From Mugil cephalus (taxonomy: Eukaryota > Chordata > Actinopteri > Mugiliformes > Mugilidae): a DNA stretch of 64,000 bases. Below, piece by piece: positions 3,336 through 33,300 of this stretch. Numbering within the stretch: position 1 is the stretch's first letter; each line of letters opens with the position of its first letter. The notes beneath the pieces were generated by a model. That model saw only the letters and a list, made by a program, of their open reading frames with translations, made no database searches and was not told where the DNA came from. The position numbers and the translations under genes were made by a program. The stretch lies in assembly GCF_022458985.1 (NCBI RefSeq), contig NC_061772.1, positions 30,681,006-30,745,005 of the forward strand, written 5' to 3'.

Positions 3336-6300
3336 TTAGTCTTCCTCAGAGGTAGGCAGGGCCTGGTATTTAGCTCTGGACCTCTTTGCTCTGCAGACCA
3401 CCACCGCACATACCAGGAGGCAGCCGATGATGAAGACCAGGTTCACACCCAGATTCATGCTCAGGCCAGATGCTGAAAGAAGAAGAAAAGGCTGATTTAA
3501 ATTACTCTGTACACTGATTTAGTTATCTTTAATATATATATCATGTATTTGTTTAAATAATCTGTGTCTGCAAAGAAACTTCAGGCTGACGTTTATTGTG
3601 CAGCTGAACTGTGCTGCCTTTAACTGAGTCATTTTTTGACATGAAAGAAGAAGAATTGATGGAAGGACTCACATTGGCTGTCAGAAGTCTTGACCAGGTG
3701 CAAAGGTCCCTGGGAAATGGAGTGTCTTCCAGTCTCAGCTGCAGCTTCCCTTTTTCTTCGATGCGTCCCTGAGTTGGAGCTGATGCATCCCTGAGAACAC
3801 CGGGTTCCAGAGGCGCCGCTCTCACACAGGAGAACGGAGCATGTGATGTAGACCTGCACATAAAATCATTAATAACCATTTCCTTATTCTGCACAATGTA
3901 AAAGTAACAGCAAAATCTTTCACCTCATCATGAGCACCGATGAACTCAAAAGCCTCCATTCCAAATCTGAACTGAGACTTGGAGCTGGGGTAGATTTGCA
4001 CAGTTTTGTCCTTCACACACCTGTGACAGAGCAGTTCAAATGTTTTAGAAATAAAAGGCTCATCATTTATCATAACCACCAACCACCACACAGAAGCATT
4101 TTTCGTACCCATTTTCGATGATGGTGTAGCTGATGCGGGAGTTGGGGTTGTCATAGGGAGTTGCCTTGCAGGACTCCACAAACAGCTCAGTGTTGGGGAT
4201 GTTGGTGGTCGCCTCAATCTGCATGAAGATCATCTGCTTCAGGTATACCTCCACTGGGTAGGTGCTGCCATCCACTTGTTTCCTAAAGCGTTGGCTCTCA
4301 AAGAACTCAAACTGAAAGGTGAAAGCACCGAAGCCTTTCTCTGTGAAGGCGTATGGGTTTTTGTGTCGGAAGCCCAGGGTCAGGTTGGTTCTCTTTGGAT
4401 AAGAGCAGGAAAAGGCGATCTCAACGTCGTGCCGCCTGGAGATGATTTCATCTGGGTCAGCAGATGAGATCTCGTTTAAAAAGATGATGTTGTCTTCATC
4501 CTCCTGAAAGTGACATGAAGTGTAAATAAAAATAAAATGTACAGTGGTGAAAAATGCTGTAAACTAAGAATGCTTTCAAAAGTTTACATAATGATTGTGT
4601 ACTGTTATCAGTTTACAAAAAGCAAAGTGAGCAAACAAAAGAAAAATCTAAGTCTAATTAATATTTAGTGCCACAAGCCATCAGCTCAGAACTGTCAAAA
4701 ACCAGTGGGACCCAGGTTCACCCATCTACTCTCTGGAGTCTGGCCACAGGTGGTCATCATGGAAGAGTTACAGCCAAAAATCCATCCCTCTGACATGGAA
4801 ACAAGGCAAAGAGACTCAACTATCCACAAAAATATAAAACTGGGCTCAAAACAATGGTAGCAGGTGATATGGACTGATGGGTCAACATGTGAAATATTTG
4901 TCTGTAGCAGAAGGCAGTTTGTTTACTAAAGGGTTGGAGAGAGCTACAATAATGAGTGTCTGCAGACAACAGTGAAGCATGGTGGAGGCTCCTCGTAAGT
5001 TTGGAGCCACATTTCTGCAAATGGAGTTGTGGTTTGGTCAGGATTAATGGTCCTCAATCCTGAGAAATACTAGAAGATACTTATCCATCATTAATACCAT
5101 CAGTGAGGAGGAGGACTGGCCCCAGATTTATTCTGCAGCAGGACAAAGACTCCAAACATCCAGCTAAGGTCATAAAGAACTATCTTCAGAGTGAAGAAGA
5201 ACAAGAAGTCCTGGAAGTGGTGGCATGGCCCACCCAGAGTCTGGGATTACTGCCTAAAACGTATGCACAGTCCTGCTACAGTACAACTTAGACAGGTTGA
5301 CTGCACAGGTTGAAGACAGGTTAACTTAAACTAGGAAATGAAAAGGTATACTGAAACTATCAAGAAATCCTATGAAATGCCTTTTGGGTCGATCGAGAAG
5401 ATCAGTTTCACTAAATGTTGAACACTCTGGAGATGAACTCTGCAGAAGAAAATATGACTAGCTGAAAAGCTAATTAATGCTAATTGATCAATAAATTGTA
5501 CTTATTCTCTTCTCAAAACAGCTAGAATTGTAACCAATGGAGAATGTTTTGGGAAACATTTGAAATGAGGCAAATTTAGAAATGTGTGTTGTTTGATTGT
5601 CTTAACCAGTAGCAGCACCTGAATGATTACATTGATAGCAGCTTTTTTTGCTTAAAGTGGACAGTGATCAAAGGCATGGAAGTGCTACTGTGATCTGAAC
5701 TATACCTCCACTTGAGTCCCACAGGCATTCAGTGACATGACAGCCACCAGGTGGGTCTCATTGGAGTGAGTTGTCAGGTTGCAGGAAGAATCTGCAACGT
5801 TGTTCAGATGCAGGTTGTCCAAGTTGCGTCTGATGAGGTACGATTTCTCCACTTCCACGGTTAATGTAGTTTCATTACACGTCACAGTGGCCTCTAAACA
5901 GATATATAAAAATGATCTGATACTGTGCTGATTTGAAATTTAAAAGCAGAAATGTTAAGACAAACTTTTGCTTCAACTAACCTTGGTGTCCAACATCAGC
6001 GGTCACACAACGAAGCTCTGACTGATAGACTCGGTTGTATCTTGACAAAGACAAATATAACAAGAACAGTTTTACTTAGAAAGGTAGTAGGTATGATAGG
6101 CATATAGGTAATTTTAAATCATAGTTAATTTAGAATTCACCTGTCTCTTGCTTCAGAAATGAAGCAGATTGGAAAGTGATCGTTGACATCCTGTTCAGTT
6201 GGCGTCCATTGTATTGTATATAGTTCTGTGGAGACTTTCTGCTTCGTAATGCCTCTTGGTCCTGTCACAATCAGGTCATAAATCCTGCAAGAGAAGCAAT

Positions 6301-9300: not shown

Positions 9301-12300
9301 AATTGGGCAGCATTCATTCAAATGGAATATTACTATGTTCTTCTCTCTTCTGCTCGTCGTGCCACATGTTTAGCTACTCCTCTGCCTCCTTTAGTGTTAA
9401 TGGTACCTGTAATAAATGTAGTTTATTTGTAGCTTTGGAGGCAAGGCTCTCTGAATTGCACCATGCAAAACCCCATACCCAGCCAGAGTGGGCCGACCAA
9501 GCGCAGCTCCCATTAGCATAGCTCCTACTAGCTGTCCGCCTGCAGCTCCCGAGCAGCCGGGAAACCAGGGCGGCTGGGTGACGGTACGAAGGAAGCATAG
9601 TCTTACCCGGCCCACGGAGCACCACCAACCACTTCATGTTTCTAACAGATTTTCCCCACTCGGCGACACACCCACTGAGAAGCCAACTCTGGTATGTGGC
9701 GACTCTATTTTGTGGAAAGTGATGTTAGAGAAACCAGCGACCATAGTTAGATGCATTCCAGGGGCCAGAGCGGGCGACACCAAATCTTATCTGAAACTGC
9801 TGGCTAAGGCTAATGCTAAGTATGGTACGATTGTTATTCACGTCGGCAGTAATGACCAACGGTTACGCCAATCAGAGGTCACTAAACTTAATATTGAATC
9901 GGTGTGCAAGTTTGCTAAAACTATGTCGGACTCCATAGTTTTCTCTGGTCCCCTGCCCAGTCTGACAAGTGACGATATGTATAGTCGCATGTCATCATTC
10001 CACCGCTGGTTATCTCGGTGGTGTCCAGCCAACGACGTGGCCTTGATAATTGGAACTCTTTCTGGGGAAAGCCTGGTCTGACTAGATTAGATGGAGTTCA
10101 TCCCACCTTGGCGGCTGCTTCTCTTATCTGTAGGAATTTGTCCGATTTTATTAACACCCCGAAACCATGACAACCCAGAGTTCAGCCCAGGAGGCAGAGC
10201 TGCAGTCTTACACGTCTCTCTGCCGCTTCTCTAGTACTGTCTCACACCCATAACTCCCCAAACTCCATAGATGTGCTGTGTGCTCCCAGATTTTTTTAAA
10301 TGGAAAAATAACAATAGAGGAGTTATTCATAGGAACCTTATCCAAATCAACACAAATTCACTAGTACAACAGAGCAATAAGAAAATTAAATGTGGTCTTT
10401 TAAATGTCAGGTCTCTCTCATCTAAATCTCTTCTAGTGACCGATTTGATAACTGATCATCAGATTGATCTATTTAGTTTGACTGAAACGTGGCTGCAGGA
10501 TGATGAGTATGTCAGTTTAAATGAGTCCACGCCACCCAGTCATAGTAACTATCACATTCCTGGAGGCACAGGCCGAGGAAGAGGAGTGGCAGCAATCTTC
10601 CACTCTGATTTATGTATTAATCCTAGACCTAAGCAATGCTTTAATTTGTTTGTTCATCCAGACTGAAAAACACAAAAAAACAGTTCTTTTTGTTGTGGTG
10701 TGTCGCCCACCTGCTCCTTACTCTGAATTTTTAGCTGAATTCTCTGAGTTTCTATGTGATTTAGTGCTTAGAACAGATAAAGTCATTATAGTAGGTGACT
10801 TTAACATCCATGTTGATGTTGGCAGTGACAGTCTTAGCTCTTCATTTATGTCATTATTAGACTCAATTGGCTTTTCTCAGAGTGTAAATGGTTCAACTCA
10901 CTGTTTCAATCACACCTTAGATCTTGTACTAACTTATGGCATAGAAGGTCCAACCGTATATTCTCACAACCCCCTATTGTCCGATCACTTTCTTGTAACA
11001 TTTGAATTTACTATGAGAGATTCCACAGAAATTGTAAAGACATTCTATGGTAGACACTTATCTGATGATGCTATAACTAGATATAAGGAATTAATGCCTT
11101 CCTGGTTGGTCTTCAGCAGATGGTTCCTCCATATGAGCTGGTTCTGCTCAAGGTTTCTTCCTGTTAAAGGAAGTTTTTCCTTCAGGCTGCTCTGGAGGTT
11201 TTTGTAAAGCGTCTTAGGATAATTTGTATTGGTATTGGTGCTATATAGACTAAAAACAGAATAAAAAGTAGCCACCTCAATCAGAAAAGACAGAAACATG
11301 GAGGTAACATTACAACCAGTTAAAACAAGCGATAGGGTTAGGGGCCCAAACATGTTCGTCTTCTGTATTTTCCAGCAGCAGTCAATGTTCTACAGCTCTT
11401 TCTCAAAAAAGTTCTGTTTCAAAGTTTATTTAAATTTAAAAAAATACATTTGCTTTGTGGATTCTTACCTGGTCTACAGAGAAACCACTGGTGACACCGC
11501 ATAAACCACACTCATAGGTGTTTGAGCTGGATGGTGTTCTGCATCTCACATGGTCACCATCAGGGTCAAACGCTGTCAGATTGAATGATCGGGGGCAGTT
11601 TCTTGGAACTCTGTAACATGACAGTCAGCTGTTTAGCTTTGGAAAAGTAAAAATAAGTAAATATAAAGTTAATTACCTGAGGACGGGCAGCGTGGTAATG
11701 AGGGGAGATCTGTTTGATTCACCGGTGTCAGATCGTGTTCCCAGGTCCACATGTGCCATCATTCTCCAGTAAGACATAGAGCTTCAGACGTTTGATATCC
11801 AGTAACCATCGCCATAGTAGGAACTTAGGTAAGTAGGATATCTGTTGGGAGAAAAAAATATCAAGTTCTATCTTTAATCGTTCGTTAAATAGAAAGTAAA
11901 AAGTTAACGTACTGCAAATACAGTTTGTGATCTTTTCATTGATTTTTATTCTTCACCTGATCTCAAAGGGGAGGTTGCTGGGGAGATTTGTTTTTGTCGT
12001 CCTTTCATACTGGCACCAGCTCAAACCATAGGAGTTCCTGGCAACTAGTCCATTGGTAGACTGGGTCTGGGTCCCACAGTTGCCACTTAGGCAAGTGTAG
12101 TAATTCTGTCTGCAGTAGTATGTAGTTTGCTTGTCACGAATTTCCAGCTGAAAAGAATCACAAGATACACTCAGAAGAAAGTTTATTTTTATTAGCATGT
12201 AGCAGTGGCCTGATGTCACCATCATGAATATGAGGTACGTTTTTCATGCATCAAATTAGAAAGAAAATTATTAATCTACTAAAATAAAACTGGATGTAGT

Positions 12301-12455
12301 GGTGGGTTTAATACCTCATAGGTTCCGTTTGAATTCCTTCCTTTAGGTGTGAAGTTCAGAGATCCACCTAAGAACCTGTACCTGTTTCTGTAGTGCCATG
12401 CAGATGCAGCTGTGACCATGAGCAGCAGATGCAGCAACAGCGTGAGAGAAGCCAT
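3336..12455 (-). CDS. ZP-cluster gene B: mucin-stalked ZP-domain membrane protein with an in-frame stop
   Basis: Thirteen exons: 12455-12315, 12147-11957, 11841-11677, 11610-11469, 7726-6658, 6563-6419, 6284-6141, 6040-5982, 5893-5706, 4503-4109, 4020-3924, 3853-3673 and 3472-3336. They total 3054 nt, exactly 1018 codons with the stop. Order of parts: signal peptide (1-19); cysteine-rich N-terminal module (about 25-255, motifs [11 protein letters not shown] and DLGTRSDTG); furin-like RRKR (262-265); Thr/Pro mucin-like stalk (about 270-550); ZP-N and ZP-C domains (about 687-930, including [10 protein letters not shown]); cleavage site RRKR (944-947); one membrane helix (about 979-1000) and a short basic tail. 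ZP domains polymerise extracellular matrices, and release at the dibasic site is the family rule. Codon 130 (11784-11786 on +) is TGA in frame, so this allele would be truncated unless it is a sequencing error or polymorphism. Exon phases match gene C. No specific orthologue is named. Confidence 0.85.
4540..5290 (+). mobile_element. Tc1-like DNA transposon remnant in gene B intron 9
   Basis: The copy lies directly upstream (in gene sense) of exon 10. On the + strand 5103-5260 reads [20 protein letters not shown] and then a stretch ending [13 protein letters not shown]. This matches the last part of Tc1-family transposases, where QQDxDxKHxxK precedes the final catalytic region WPxQSPDLNP; here the catalytic D/N residues are degraded to LGLL. 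It ends near 5285 in an imperfect terminal repeat (AAACGTATGCACAGTCCTG). A copy in the opposite orientation is at 18930-19570. Confidence 0.7.
6658..7726 (-). other. Giant exon 5 of gene B with Thr/Pro mucin-like repeat
   Basis: This single 1069-nt exon begins with the end of the N-terminal module ([20 protein letters not shown]), then RRKRQ, then about 280 residues of Thr/Pro-rich repeats such as [11 protein letters not shown] with scattered Ala, Ser, Ile and Asn. It ends in [20 protein letters not shown] before the next exon. Dense Thr next to Pro predicts heavy O-glycosylation and an extended stalk. The homologous exon of gene C is only 181 nt. The difference of 888 nt is a whole number of codons, so the stalk grew inside the exon without changing phase. 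On the + strand the tract reads as Val-, Cys- or Gly-rich open frames, which are shadows. Confidence 0.9.
7800..8990 (+). mobile_element. APE-type LINE fragment (endonuclease region)
   Basis: Located in gene B intron 4. The frame at 8200-8600 contains [28 protein letters not shown], the degraded form of the endonuclease signature GDFNAHVGxDxxTWxGVIGxNG, followed by [12 protein letters not shown] and, after a break, [19 protein letters not shown], the SDH-type motif that closes the domain. Stops and frame changes show it is dead, and no reverse transcriptase follows. The clade is not assigned. Confidence 0.7.
9010..11262 (+). mobile_element. L2-like LINE, internally deleted, with SGNH-type ORF1
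   Basis: Located in gene B intron 4, opposite to the gene. First frame (9488-10081): [23 protein letters not shown] and [10 protein letters not shown] follow the GDS and GxND blocks of SGNH/GDSL esterase-like domains carried by some fish L2 and CR1 LINEs. Second frame (about 10390-11060, broken near 10666) is an APE endonuclease: [54 protein letters not shown] and [12 protein letters not shown]. At about 11095 it jumps straight to the 3' tail ([15 protein letters not shown], then a GTGCTATATAGA tail). The reverse transcriptase is missing, so the copy could only move with help. Confidence 0.8.
11784..11786 (-). pseudogene. Premature TGA in gene B exon 3 (codon 130)
   Basis: The minus-strand frame set by exon 2 (ending in two bases AG, completed by A of exon 3) reads [18 protein letters not shown] and then TGA. 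Gene A has AGA at the same place. The remaining exons of gene B stay open for another 888 codons with canonical splice sites, so the lesion is either very recent, polymorphic, read through, or a base error. Confidence 0.85.
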
Positions 12456-12664
12456 CCTGACGAGTGCTGCGTCCTCAGCATTAACGGTCCAGCTTAAGTA
12501 CTTTTCTAGGAGGAAATAAGGACAAAGAGCTACTCTGATCTGCCTGTGTTTTTACAGATGACCTGAATGCACACACCTCATCCAAACATGCCAATCTTGT
12601 GGCTTGTCTCTATGGTTCTTGGATTTAAACAGTGTGACCGCATTTGAGAACACACATGTTAAAA
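12456..12664. promoter_or_regulatory. Upstream region of gene B
   Basis: This is the short interval between the gene B start codon and the palindromic element. The first 50 bases are nearly identical to the sequence upstream of gene A (1015-1065), which fits a duplicated proximal promoter. No TATA box or other motif is certain. Confidence 0.35.
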
Positions 12665-12672
12665 GATAATAG
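12665..12672. repeat. Left target-site duplication GATAATAG
   Basis: Exact copy of the eight bases at 15766-15773; it borders the outer end of the left arm of the palindromic element. Confidence 0.88.
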
Positions 12673-15600
12673 GGTAACACTTTCTATGAAGGTTGTATTT
12701 ATAATGCCCTATGAATGCACTCATAATGTTTTATAAGGTGTCTATAAAGCATTATAATGGTCATTATTACCATCTATACATATTCGCAAGTCGTTATAAC
12801 CAACTTCATGATGCATTATGACAACTGGTTATGAATGATTACAATTTTAATCTGAATAGTGCATTATAAATATGTCAATATCTGCCTAGTCACTTGTTAG
12901 TTTTATAATGCATCATAACTACTTTGCTTTGCTAAATGTGCATAGTGATGCATAATGACTTTTGACTTCTCCTATAGTGCTTTATATCTGTAGTTATAAG
13001 TCTATGTAATAAAGTTATAATAATGTATACATCTCCCTACAGCACACTGTTATAAACAGCTATGCAGTATCATAAGTGCTATTTGTCAGCGCTAAGTAAA
13101 GTGACAAGAATATGACACTATTATTAACAGATATAAGTTACTATGAGTAATTAAAAGGTGCAATGAACTAAGTCCTGAGTCTGGCATCTTTACCCCATAT
13201 GCACAATGTTAATATCATAGGTGTTATTTGTCAGCTTTAGGTAAATTAGAGCAAATGAAATGCCTGGACAGTAAAGACAAAAGAAATGCATTTAGTTCAC
13301 TTTATTTTCATTTAAACCAACACACATAATCAGAATGATTATCAACGCTCTGAGCACATTACACAAACACATGAATCAGGCCACAAAAGTGGCACGGCGT
13401 GGTCCTAGAGATGTGACTCTTAAAAGTGCCTTTGGGTTGGTGAGGTGATTCAGGGTCAGAGGTCAGGAGATGGTTTGACAGCAACTACAAGAAGAACAGA
13501 GGCAAATCTTTAGTGCTCTAGCTGGGTTTGTTTTTATGCAGAAAGGTTTGAATGAAAACACATAAGCAGATCACGTTTTTTGTTTAAAGCAGCCTAATGA
13601 GACATTATGTTACCGCATAACATGCAGACACCGTAGATTACCCGTAGGTGGCTTAAGCTAGCTAGAGGAAAGTTACCAGACACGGCTAGTTTTAACTCAC
13701 AAATTAGATCGTTTTCATATTCTTGCGTTTAATGATTGAAACCATTCGAAATCATTGCTTTAATATGTAAACGATGTGCTTCATGTAAGCAAAGTAAGGC
13801 ATTAGCTCACAAAACACTAGCAGGACAGAGAGACGACCTACCTGTCCTGGAGAGGACTCAGCGGAGAAAGGAAAGAAAAGCCGCTTTACGACTAGTACAT
13901 ACAGTTAATGCTTTACGACAGTGGGTGGAGCTGTGGGTCAGAGGTCAGGGGTCATGGACTAAGGAATGACACTTCTACAATAATAATAATAACGATATCA
14001 AAATAATATCTGACGGCATTCAATAAAGGCGGACATTTCTAGCGATCCTGTATAAGAGACCAATATAACAAATAACCATTAATTTTTTTTCGAATCTCAA
14101 AGTGCCGAATCCTGCAGCAAAATTGACGTTACATTAAAAACCGAAATAAGACTATTACAAATCTAGTCTAAATGAAATTAAATCAAACCTCTTCATTGCG
14201 CAGTGTCACATTGACAGTCGTCCTCACAAAATAACTTCCAATTGAAATACATCAGTTTGAAATTCGCTTCGAGCGGCATGAAAATTTGAGGAAAATCGGC
14301 AGGCACCAAACAATAGATTAATTTTCGTGACAGTTTCACATCCACTGTGACACCGGGTTGGCATTTAAGCGCTTCTTTATACAGGATCACTAGAAAAGTC
14401 CGCATTTATTGAATGCCGTCAGATATTATTTTGATATCGTTTTTATTTATATTATTATTATTGTAGAAATGTCATTCTTTAGTCCATGACCCCTGACCTC
14501 TGACCCCACCCACCTCCCTCCTCAGCTCCTCCCACTGTCGTAAAGCATTGACTGCGGGTTTTCCGCTCTTTCTCCGCTGAGTCCTCTCCAGGACAGGTAG
14601 GACGTGTCTCTGTCCTGCTAGTGTTTTGTGAGCTAATGCCTTACTTTGCTTACATGAAACACATCGTTTACGTATTAAAGCAATGATTTCGAATGGTTTC
14701 AATCATTAAACGCAAGAATATGAAAACGATCTAATTTGTGAGTTAAAACTAGCCGTGTCTGGTAACTTTCGTCTAGCTAGCTTAAGCCACCTACGGGTAA
14801 TCTGCGCTGCCTGCACGATATGCGGTAACACAATGTTTCATTAGGCTGCTTTAAACAAAAAACGTGATCTGCTTATGTGTTTTCATTCAAACCTTTCTGC
14901 ATAAAAACAAACCCAGCTAGAGCACTAAAGATTTGCCTCTGTTCTTCTTGTAGTTGCTGTCAAACCATCTCCTGACCTCTGACCCTGAATCACCTCACCA
15001 ACCCAAAGGCACTTTTAAGAGTCACATCTCTAGGACCACGCCGTGCCACTTTTGTGGCCTGTTTCATGTGTTTGTGTAATGTGCTCAGAGCGTTGATAAT
15101 CATTCTGATTATGTGTGTTGGTTTAAATGAAAATAAAGTGAACTAAATGCATTTCTTTTGTCTTTACTGTCCAGGCATTTCATTTGCTCTAATTTACCTA
15201 AAGCTGACAAATAACACCTATGATATTAACATTGTGCATATGGGGTAAAGATGCCAGACTCAGGACTTAGTTCATTGCACCTTTTAATTACTCATAGTAA
15301 CTTATATCTGTTAATAATAGTGTCATATTCTTGTCACTTTACTTAGCGCTGACAAATAGCACTTATGATATTGCATAGCTGTTTATAACAGTGTGCTGTA
15401 GGGAGATGTATTCATTATTATAACTTTATTACATAGACTTATAACTACAGATATAAAGCACTATAGGCGAAGTCAAAAGTCATTATGCATCATTATACAC
15501 ATTTAGCAAAGCAAAGTAGTTATGATGCATTATAAAACTAACGAGTGACTAGGCAGATATTGACATATTTATAAAGCACTATTCAGATTAAAATTATAAT

Positions 15601-15765
15601 CATTCATAACCAGTTGTCATAATGCATCATGAAGTTGGTTATAACGACTTGTGAATATGTATAGATGGTAATAATTACCATTATAATGCTTTATAGACAC
15701 CTTATAAAACATTATGAGTGCATTCATAGGGCATTATAAATACAACCTTCATAGAAAGTGTTACC
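12673..15765. mobile_element. DNA transposon made of two 1.4 kb inverted arms (foldback)
   Basis: The left arm (12673 to about 14054) and right arm (about 14376-15765) are reverse complements over almost their full length, with scattered substitutions and a few indels (for example near 13880-13950 against 14490-14570). The ends read GGTAACACTTTCTATGAAGG on both strands. The element is flanked by an exact 8-bp duplication, GATAATAG, at 12665-12672 and 15766-15773, proving insertion as a unit. Eight-base duplications are typical of hAT elements but also of some other superfamilies, and these ends are not the classic hAT form, so the superfamily is left open. No transposase is visible: the open frames in the arms (13736-13969 and its mirror 14702-14472) have no motif I know. 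It would form a huge hairpin if transcribed. Confidence 0.88.
14055..14375. other. Unique centre of the palindromic element
   Basis: About 320 bases separate the two arms. On the minus strand a 70-codon frame (14405-14193) reads through it, with MRTFLVILYKEALKCQPGV near its start and CEDDCQCDTAQ at its end. It matches no family I know. It could be a relic of a captured exon or chance. There are no transposase motifs. Confidence 0.4.
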
Positions 15766-15773
15766 GATAATAG
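15766..15773. repeat. Right target-site duplication GATAATAG
   Basis: Exact copy of 12665-12672; it borders the outer end of the right arm of the palindromic element. Confidence 0.88.
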
Positions 15774-16436
15774 CTACAGATAATAGGTGCAAATGAACAA
15801 AGGAGACCTTCATATGCTTTCATACTATTTTACTATTGGCTGATTTTCACACAGCTATCGCCAAATCTACTGGAGGCACCCACAAAGAAACTGAGTATCA
15901 CAGTCATTATCAGATCTTACAGAAAAAAAATGCATGTGAAAAGATTTGTAAAAGTTAGAGATAATATTATGAAGTTTACCTATTAGTTCAACCATTAGTA
16001 TCCAATTTATTGTTGCATGTGTCACCTTTTTCTAGTTGATTTAAGGTCAGTCATTTAATTGGAGCATCTTTACATTTAATTGGAGCATCTTTAGTACGAA
16101 AATACATCATTCAGAGATTCAGAATAAAGTTGCACTTTTTCAGGTTTCTAAATGTTTTTTCCTTACAGGCAGCATTTACAAGATATCTGGAAAACATTTT
16201 TAAAACTGAGACTCTAATATGAAAATGCACCATAAAAGCACAGCTGCAGCTTTGAGGAGACAAACATGAAATGTCTGTCTGACTTTCAAAACAGTAACTT
16301 TCAGACTGGTAAAGATTTTTTAAATAATAATTATAATAATTTGATTTCAACGTTTTTTGACTTTCAACATTTCTGAGGATATTTTTGAAATTTCAAATTA
16401 TGATCTTAAAGATAGTGAAGTTTCTACACATAGAAT
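15774..16436. other. Intergenic, nothing recognised
   Basis: AT-rich sequence between the palindromic element and the nested transposons. A 15-base string (TTTAATTGGAGCATC) is repeated once at about 16050-16092. No coding homology is seen. Confidence 0.4.
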
Positions 16437-30359: not shown

Positions 30360-33300
30360 TTAGTTGGGTTCCCATTGTGAATCTATGAGAACTTTGCAGT
30401 CGTCGGCTTTCCTCTTTCTGCTGTAGTGACGAACGATCAAACCCAGCATCACCAACAACACTAAGAAGGCGCTGGCAAAGACCACGGTGGTGATGTTGGA
30501 GCAGAGGAAGTCTACAACTCCCCAGTCCTCTTTATTTGTGGATTTGGGTTGTGGAGTCAGACTGGTCAGAGGATGAGAGCTGGAGAGGATATCTGAAAGA
30601 CAACAATAGGAAGGTTTAGCTTTAGATTGGTTGGTGGGTTGGTGGGTGATCAGTAGATGGAGGTTGGTAGTAGGTAAGTGAATAGTAGCTTAGTAGATTG
30701 GTAGTTGAGTTGGTGAACAGGTAGGTTGGTAGGTAGGTAGATAATTAGATTGGAAAATGTGTAGGTAGGTAGATGAGCAGTTAGATTGGTAATTTGGTCG
30801 ATGAGTAGGTAGTTGGGTAGGTAGATGAATATATAGATAGGTAGCTGGTAGGTAAATATGTGAGTATTTGGATAGGTAGGGAGGTAGGTGAGTTGTTAAA
30901 TTAATAGTAGACTGGTAGGTAGGAGAACAACAGGCTGATGATGCTTGGTCGGTTGGTAGTTGAGTTGGTAAGTAGATAGGTAGATAATTAAATTGGTAAA
31001 TGTGCAGCTAGATGAGCAGTCAGATTGGTCATTTGGTTGGTAAGTAGGTAGTTGAAGACATAGACAAGTAGACTAGTTGGTAGGTGAGTCGGTAGATAAG
31101 TACATCAGCTGGTGAGTAGATAGGTTAGCAGGTGAGTGGGTAGCAAACTGTTAATGGCTGTTTTCAGATTTGTTTAGTATCGTGTTTGTCACTGAGCTGA
31201 AAGAAATTGCAGTTGAGAGTTGAGTCATTCTTAATGGAAAATTTCACAAATGCATGTGGTGTGGTGTAGATAAGTGAGTAATTATATGTAGAACTAATTA
31301 GATTAGTAAAAGTGCATGTAGGTATATGACCAGTTAGATTGGTAATTCAGTAAGTTAGCAGGTGAGTGGGTAGCTTGGTCCGCTAGTTCAGTGGGTAGGT
31401 GAGTAGATCAGTTGGTGAGTAGGTGGATAGGTAATTATCATAGTATTGGTCGTTGAGTTGATTGGTAGGTTATTGGGTTGGTAGGTGAGTCAGTGGGTGG
31501 ATCGTTAGGGGAGCAAATCCATAGACAAGTCGTGGATAGATGAGTGGGTAGGTAGGTTGGTTGGTCAGATACTAACCATCAGCAGATTCGACTTTGTTCC
31601 TCAGCAACACTTGCTCCTCAGACTCAGCTTCATCGGTAACAGACGGCCCAACAAACTGCAGGGGACCCTGGGTAATGTAGTGCCCACCGGTCTCCTTGGC
31701 CAGATCTCGCCTTCGTCTGCGGTATGAGTCCTTCAAACAGCCCTGCGCACATCTGGAAAATGGACTGCCAGGCTCGCAAAGGATGACGGAGCAGGTGATG
31801 TAGACCTGAAGCAAAGTGGCCGGTAAGATTTCCAGAAACACTGAAACTGTAGATTTGACCATGAGCGCTGTGGTTCGTGTTCAGTTAAATTTAGGAGTCA
31901 CCTGGTCGTAGTTTCCGGTAAACTTGAAGGCTTGAACCTCAAAGTTGAATTCAGTTTGGGCAGATGAGTGAACGGTGAGTGTTTCATCTTCCAGGCACCT
32001 GCAGGGAGAAGAGTTGTAAAATACACTGTGATTGATGGTTATTATTATATACTGTGAGTCCAGGAAGCATCAGCACTATGGAGACTTGTAGGGTTTCCTG
32101 AAGATGTTCATCCATGTAGCTTCTTCAGTTCTAAAAGACTTGTGGGGAGTTGGGTTTTAAGAGGAACATCTGTTGGTAGACACTACATCAGATACTCAGC
32201 TGTAAATGTATCCCCATTAAGTCTTTTAGAACTGAATAAAACATCTTCCCTTGTTCCATCTGGTTATTTAATTTTCTGGGTATACTGTGACCTGGATGGC
32301 TGAGAAGCGTCAGTACTAACCCATTCTTGATGAGGTCGTAGGAGAGGCTGTTTTCAGGGTTGTCGTCTGGAGTGGCTTTGCATGATTCGACAAACAGAGT
32401 CACATTTGGCAGTTCTGAGTTAGCCTGGATGCCCATGTAAATCTTCTGCAGCAGCTTGACCTCCACTGGGTAGGCACTGGGCTCCACCTTCTCGGAGAAG
32501 TTGCTATTGCGGAAAATTTCAAAGGAGTAGCCGAAGCTGCCGAAGCTTGACTCTGTGAAAATGTAGTCAGACTTGTGGACACTGTAGTAACTGGAGATGC
32601 TGATGGTTTTGGGAAACTGGCAGGAGAAATCAATCTTAACCGTCTTCCTTCTGACTATAACCTCGGTGGGAAGCTCGAAGGAGTTGATCTCATTCTTGAA
32701 AACAATAAAGTCACCTTTATCCTGCAGGTAAACCACAGAGAACCAATTAGTGTTTGTGCACACACCAAGAATTTCAAATTTAACAGTTCGATTATTTAAA
32801 AATGATTTTCCACACCTCAACTTTTGTGCCACAGGTGGTAAAGGACATGGTTCCCGTGATGTGGGTGCCGTTGGAGGTAAGAGAGCACGAGGGATCCCTC
32901 AGTTTCAGGAAGTTCACGTCGATGTCCGGCATGGAGGCTTTGTCCAGGGCCACCGTCATCTTGTTGGGTGAGCAGTGGACCGTGGCCTTGCCTGTGAAGA
33001 ATGGCATTGTTTCAGAATATTTCCAAACTCATGCAAACGTTGTTGTGTCTTAAAACAACTCTAAAATGTAGTCCACCACCACATGCATAAGTTGCAAATG
33101 TAATCATCACTGCCTCCAGGTTTTCTGGTCTGATCTGTGTTGCTGGAGGCTTGTGAACATGTGAACACTAGAACTACTCGAAAGACTTGTCGGCAAAGAA
33201 CTAGTTTCTCTGCTGGAACATTAACTGTCCTCTGGCTTTTTGAATCCTCCACAAGATTTAACATCTTTTCACTCACTTCGAAACAGATTAGTAATATATC

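Follow-up and report, generated by a model that had tools for sequence, protein, structure and literature searches.

Architecture of the palindromic element

The window analyzed here, the whole stretch of 64,000 nucleotides of Mugil cephalus DNA, contains a palindromic transposon of 3,093 bp, which alignment of its two arms within the window places at 12673-15765. The left arm, a 1,383-bp terminal inverted repeat on the plus strand (12673-14055) whose first bases are GGTAACACTTTCTATGAAGG, aligns with the reverse complement of a 1,389-bp right arm on the minus strand (14377-15765). The arms are 94.5% identical with gaps counted over 1,407 columns (36 mismatches and 42 gap columns) and enclose a central spacer of 321 bp (14056-14376). 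Both ends of the element read GGTAACACTTT, with a terminal GG. Exact 8-bp target-site duplications, GATAATAG, flank it at 12665-12672 and 15766-15773; the chance that two random 8-mers of this base composition match is about 2 × 10^-5 for one such pair. A third GATAATAG (15779-15786), downstream of the right copy and offset from it by 13 bp, is read as target rather than element and indicates that the target held GATAATAG twice, 13 bp apart, before insertion. An earlier note had proposed a palindromic transposon with arms of about 1.4 kb, about 320 unique central bases, and an intact 8-bp duplication, all of which agrees with these measurements. Its span of 12665-15773 does hold the transposon but takes in both duplications along with the element proper. 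That note had named low arm identity, an absence of other copies, and an assembly artifact as grounds against its claim, and the arm alignment that it proposed removes the first of these.

Over its outermost 420 bp (12673-13092), the left arm is rich in GCATTATAA, with 23 matches at up to two mismatches, compared with 1 in the rest of that arm and with an expectation of 5.2 from 500 first-order simulations (standard deviation of 2.4, largest value of 15). This outer region is possibly a transposase-binding region. Tandem Repeats Finder reported no array inside the element, and searches of the whole window with Rfam (gathering thresholds) and ARAGORN gave no matches. The spacer has a CpG observed/expected ratio of 1.25 at 36% GC; the ratio is 0.53 in the left arm and 0.49 in the window.

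The mirrored open frames that the earlier note had pointed out in the arms do exist, at 77 and 76 amino acids, but they look noncoding: a Pfam search of 10 of the 22 frames of at least 38 amino acids overlapping the element, these two included, yielded no match above a cut-off. The same ten frames gave no detectable DDE_Tnp_IS1595 transposase, and the element is not an autonomous Merlin. The longest spacer frame (14193-14405, minus strand, 70 amino acids) extends from the spacer into the inner right arm. We rejected it as a gene, which it probably is not, because it is intact under a strict test in only 13 of the 35 copies where it was found. Two others (L131 and L146) are open across a slightly shorter alignment and fall outside the 13 strict passes; in the remaining copies, a stop or a frameshift interrupts the frame or its alignment is truncated. 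A JGI contig of 1,643 bases carries a 70-amino-acid frame that is 90% identical to the spacer frame, which suggests that the family is probably also present in another sample.

Several other features lie in the window. A local direct duplication links 1-1076 with 11538-12517 (identical across 94 bases and about 87% identical across a further 890 or so), and the two segments carry similar minus-strand open frames at 536-841 and 11953-12243. The copy near the element stops about 150 bp before the insertion, so the window holds no empty site. ZP-domain exons on the minus strand at 4063-4563 (7.1e-16) and 32188-32898 (5.1e-15) suggest repeated ZP genes. Just upstream of the element, on the plus strand at 9455-11207, an endonuclease domain (1.5e-5) follows a GDSL-like match (0.0067), each scoring below its Pfam cut-off; this may be the remnant of a LINE-like non-LTR retrotransposon.

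Copies of the element in the genome

A search of the 635-Mb genome (24 contigs) with a 35-base terminal pattern, allowing up to three mismatches, returned 643 matches (314 forward and 329 reverse), while the reversed-pattern control returned none. Other copies are therefore abundant, and with 643 such ends in a genome of this size an assembly artifact is unlikely. Assemblers struggle with long palindromes, and reads used for polishing, when short, can map to either arm, by which route an assembler or polishing step might create a palindrome or inflate the identity of its arms. The window element nevertheless has 36 arm mismatches and an indel-rich block, differences exceeding those of a simple fold-back read artifact, together with an exact target duplication and a plan found in many other copies. 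Polishing would also be expected to homogenize sequence across copies and not just between arms. We regard an artifactual origin as highly improbable, and neither of the two remaining objections anticipated by the earlier note materialized.

To describe the family, we examined 42 two-ended copies, the window copy included, which form a nonrandom sample. An arm query gave 709 first-look genome candidates and a spacer query gave 232, of which 40 were scored in each case. Twenty of the 42 copies were picked for varied length among the listed arm and terminal-pattern matches. The other 22, the window copy among them, came from 30 spacer-match loci, 25 of which were two-ended and 3 of which were dropped as places already in the set. 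The 8-bp duplications were exact in 26 copies, differed by one mismatch in 8, and had at least two mismatches in 8, whereas flanks paired across different copies gave no exact and four one-mismatch duplications among 1,722 pairs. Among the eight copies with at least two mismatches, we found six cross matches with at most one mismatch, about the control rate. The first base of the duplication in the 26 exact copies was G in 13, A in 10, C in 3, and T in none, and the absence of T possibly reflects a weak target preference.

The standard plan was present in 28 of the 42 copies, with lengths of 3,093 to 3,280 bp and arms of 1,364 to 1,478 bp; the spacer matched end to end in 23 of these and nearly so in 5. 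The other 14 copies were deleted or rearranged and were excluded from the arm analysis. One copy (L127), with an exact duplication, is reduced to a single arm and the final 35 bp. We did not accept it as proof that a 35-bp end is enough, as the deletion may have followed the insertion. Another copy, L120 (G000:C19:15597126-15601105), is a re-palindromized derivative of 3,980 bp. Its 1.8-kb arms share 99.4% identity, it holds the spacer twice in inverted arrangement, and its 8-bp target duplication is exact. A copy on contig C7 (L185), considered for its intermediate terminus, proved to be a shorter derivative of 2,044 bp with an exact duplication, and a 50-kb inversion considered between two copies on contig C16 was unsupported by the flanks compared (three of four).

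With its mostly long terminal inverted repeats, undetected coding capacity, target duplication, and many copies, the window element belongs to a numerous non-autonomous family of foldback-type cut-and-paste transposons. MITEs are a few hundred bases in size, and both the window element and the other standard copies are well above that range. Beyond this genome, the exact 20-base terminus had no matches in either viral or bacterial contigs. Looser terminus patterns recovered 75 and 28 viral stretches, against which blastn with the element gave nothing better than an E value of 0.001.

The terminus and a Merlin-type element with similar ends

The earlier note, which assigned the element to no superfamily, had proposed searching the terminus for an autonomous relative. 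A terminus pattern barring the twelfth base of the family matched 10 places in the genome (controls, 1 forward and 0 reverse), two of which are the paired ends of a 4,492-bp element on contig C13. This element, L182, carries inverted repeats of roughly 635 bp; its ends, GGTAACACTTTATATTAAGG, are identical on both sides to the terminus of the window family at 18 of 20 positions. Its flanks, AAAATTTT and AAATTTTT, lie in an AT-rich stretch and agree at 7 of 8 bases. It carries a frame that matches DDE_Tnp_IS1595 (PF12762) at 7.9e-17, above the cut-off, and the NCBIfam IS1595 model at 1.1e-15, below the cut-off. A stop codon directly precedes this frame, so the copy looks broken or intron-split. 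The frame has 39 database protein matches, those named being from Engraulis, Coilia, Megalobrama, Serrasalmus, Gouania, and Arctogadus. The search thus turned up a Merlin-type element in the same genome but not a proven helper, and the similarity between L182 and the window family is limited to a terminus of about 21 bp.

On the strand opposite its transposase, L182 (G000:C13:26161860-26166550) also carries a CCDC106-like frame (positions 903-1301 of the locus, minus strand; PF15794, 2.1e-26), possibly an accessory or captured gene. The same 20-base terminus as that of L182 occurs at two further loci, L184 (G000:C15:296705) and L186 (G000:C21:3479849). L186 holds a shorter relative of L182, and a blastn comparison of L184 with L182 gave no match at 1e-10; several families may therefore share this terminus.

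As quoted in the account that we draw on in part, Merlin elements have a terminal GG, duplications of 8 to 9 bp, and inverted repeats of 24 to 462 bp (PMC8101967). The window element shares with this superfamily its GG ends, its 8-bp duplications, and long inverted repeats, in addition to the terminus in common with L182. It differs in that no transposase was found inside it, in that inverted repeat makes up almost all of its length, and in that its arms, at 1,383 bp, are about three times the upper limit of the quoted range. The repeats of L182 suggest that this range, as quoted, may be too narrow.

These ends might instead come from a different superfamily that makes 8-bp duplications (hAT, P, Zisupton/KDZ, or MULE), the resemblance to the terminus of L182 being convergent or coincidental. 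Duplications of 8 bp are common to several superfamilies, namely, Zisupton, P, and hAT in the sources drawn on here, and the genome does contain KDZ (4 hits) and P-type (6 hits) transposase sequence. One KDZ hit (L175) and several P-type hits (L176, L178, and L180/L181) have weak look-alikes of the terminus nearby, each with 6 mismatches in 20. However, among sites with at most two mismatches in the first 11 to 12 bases, no end at the KDZ and P-type loci, which spanned 1.5 kb on either side of the hits (9.5-kb stretches for 2 of the 4 KDZ hits), had fewer than 6 mismatches in 20. L182, by comparison, combines 2 mismatches in 20 at each end with an IS1595-type frame, and we consider another superfamily unlikely. 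The family ends and inserts like Merlin. The shared terminus, the GG, and the 8-bp duplication point to a non-autonomous foldback element that is probably moved, as a passenger, by a Merlin-type transposase and is a candidate rather than an established member of the superfamily.

Variant sharing between arms and comparison with known systems

If the arms had diverged independently after a single origin of the palindrome, left arms should resemble the left arms of other copies. Among the 28 standard copies, mean divergence between elements was nearly the same for arms on the same side (0.0428) and on opposite sides (0.0437). Across the 378 pairs of these copies, 6,670 informative sites supported within-element sharing, compared with 987 for same-side and 555 for crossed sharing, and within-element sharing prevailed in 354 pairs; the pairs are non-independent through shared ancestry, and these site counts are not probabilities. 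Divergence within elements averaged 0.0315, compared with 0.0433 for shuffled pairings, none of 20,000 of which was as low. The pattern held for transversions alone (2,777 within-element, 458 same-side, and 226 crossed sites) and for six standard copies drawn from the position-ordered listing (378, 51, and 29 sites, respectively, with 13 of 15 pairs favoring within-element sharing). Of 119 minor alleles present in two arms and no others, 35 were in both arms of one element, where the share expected by chance is 1.8%. Simulations without exchange but with strong rate variation (60 runs over 6 settings) produced at most 1,580 within-element sites.

The signal depends on position. In 100-bp bins, the within-element share was 0.76 to 0.98 over the outer 1.1 kb and 0.50 to 0.66 beyond it, towards the spacer; the arm block beside the spacer had 405 same-side, 589 within-element, and 134 crossed sites. 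Some counts weigh against so simple a picture: 424 minor alleles were confined to one arm, the mate arm was the nearest relative over the full length for only 12 of 56 arms, and clear conversion-like tracts were seen in a minority of elements. In 6 of 27, an uninterrupted run of identity reached at least the 95th percentile for matched pairs of different elements, the window element lying at the 94th. In the window copy, mismatches numbered 2 in the 534 alignment columns from 395 to 928, 9 in the 394 further out, 12 in the 270 further in, and 13 in the 167 beside the spacer. In a scan test over its first 1,198 columns (23 mismatches), the longest stretch with one mismatch had a P value of 0.00044 and the longest run a P value of 0.024, although the result was weak when neighboring mismatches were merged (P = 0.023 and P = 0.18). 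The arms of one element evolve together, a point absent from the earlier note, and gene conversion from arm to arm fits these data best.

Similarity within elements would likewise result if the palindrome were remade from one arm by snap-back copying during transposition or repair, the arms then starting out identical with no later conversion, and L120 suggests that re-duplication of an arm can occur. Against such copying, the spacer is retained end to end in most standard copies, and the spacer side of the arm keeps some side-specific signal, which copying of the whole arm in every cycle would erase. We judge this account to be quite improbable.

Our preferred reading, which we hold to be likely, is that of a non-autonomous foldback family that uses a Merlin-type transposase and whose arms are homogenized by gene conversion. 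A Merlin-type (IS1595-like DDE) transposase encoded elsewhere in the genome would recognize the GGTAACACTTT ends, excise the element, and insert it through an 8-bp staggered cut. Because they are long and nearly identical, the arms would recombine with one another through gene conversion, perhaps during double-strand break repair. Changes in one arm would often be erased or copied to the other, so that the ends stay matched, and sequence adjacent to the spacer would be converted less. A bolder and rather doubtful extension is that homogenization is integral to the life cycle, with each move or repair templating one arm on the other, so that the ends proofread themselves and mobility persists well past the point at which one end of an ordinary non-autonomous element would be lost; the less converted block by the spacer would then be the part adjoining the hairpin loop.

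Hundreds of ends in one genome offer a replicated natural system in which gene conversion between inverted repeats of a vertebrate can be measured with respect to position. If Merlin-type enzymes do move the family, the known range of inverted-repeat length in the superfamily widens. A literature search on the terminal word found no fish transposon by title or abstract opening, and no Merlin-ended palindromic family was described among the matches listed, by title or abstract opening, in a literature drawn mostly from nonsubscription journals. Repeat databases such as Repbase may already list the family. The apparent novelty lies in a Merlin-ended family of such shape with hundreds of ends, together with the positional profile of its homogenization.

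Among known systems, Angel and other zebrafish palindromic MITEs are likewise noncoding palindromic elements of fish, but they measure a few hundred bases, compared with 3.1 kb here. Tetris of Drosophila virilis is described as a foldback transposon whose terminal inverted repeats are likewise long (PMC4079207); the present element has no internal array by Tandem Repeats Finder. A precedent is Galileo of Drosophila, a Foldback-like member of the P superfamily, with its derivative GalileoN. In the part of the Galileo study drawn on here, two GalileoN copies have repeats of about 575 bp around a middle of about 350 bp, with more than 99% identity within copies and about 7% divergence between them, whereas GalileoN copies 4 and 5 show the reverse, about 6% divergence within and more than 99% identity between, which was read as ectopic recombination (PMC2775673). 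The pattern of arms alike within a copy is thus known in principle. No partner of the type of copies 4 and 5 was present among the unmatched-flank copies of our 42-copy sample. The same part of that study names long-repeat Galileo copies as a source of inversions in flies (PMC2775673), which makes the copies with unmatched flanks found here candidate rearrangement breakpoints. As far as that account goes, Galileo and the window family both place long repeats around a short middle and have arms that are alike within a copy; Galileo makes 7-bp duplications and has a P-type transposase, while the family described here makes 8-bp duplications and has Merlin-like ends and longer arms.
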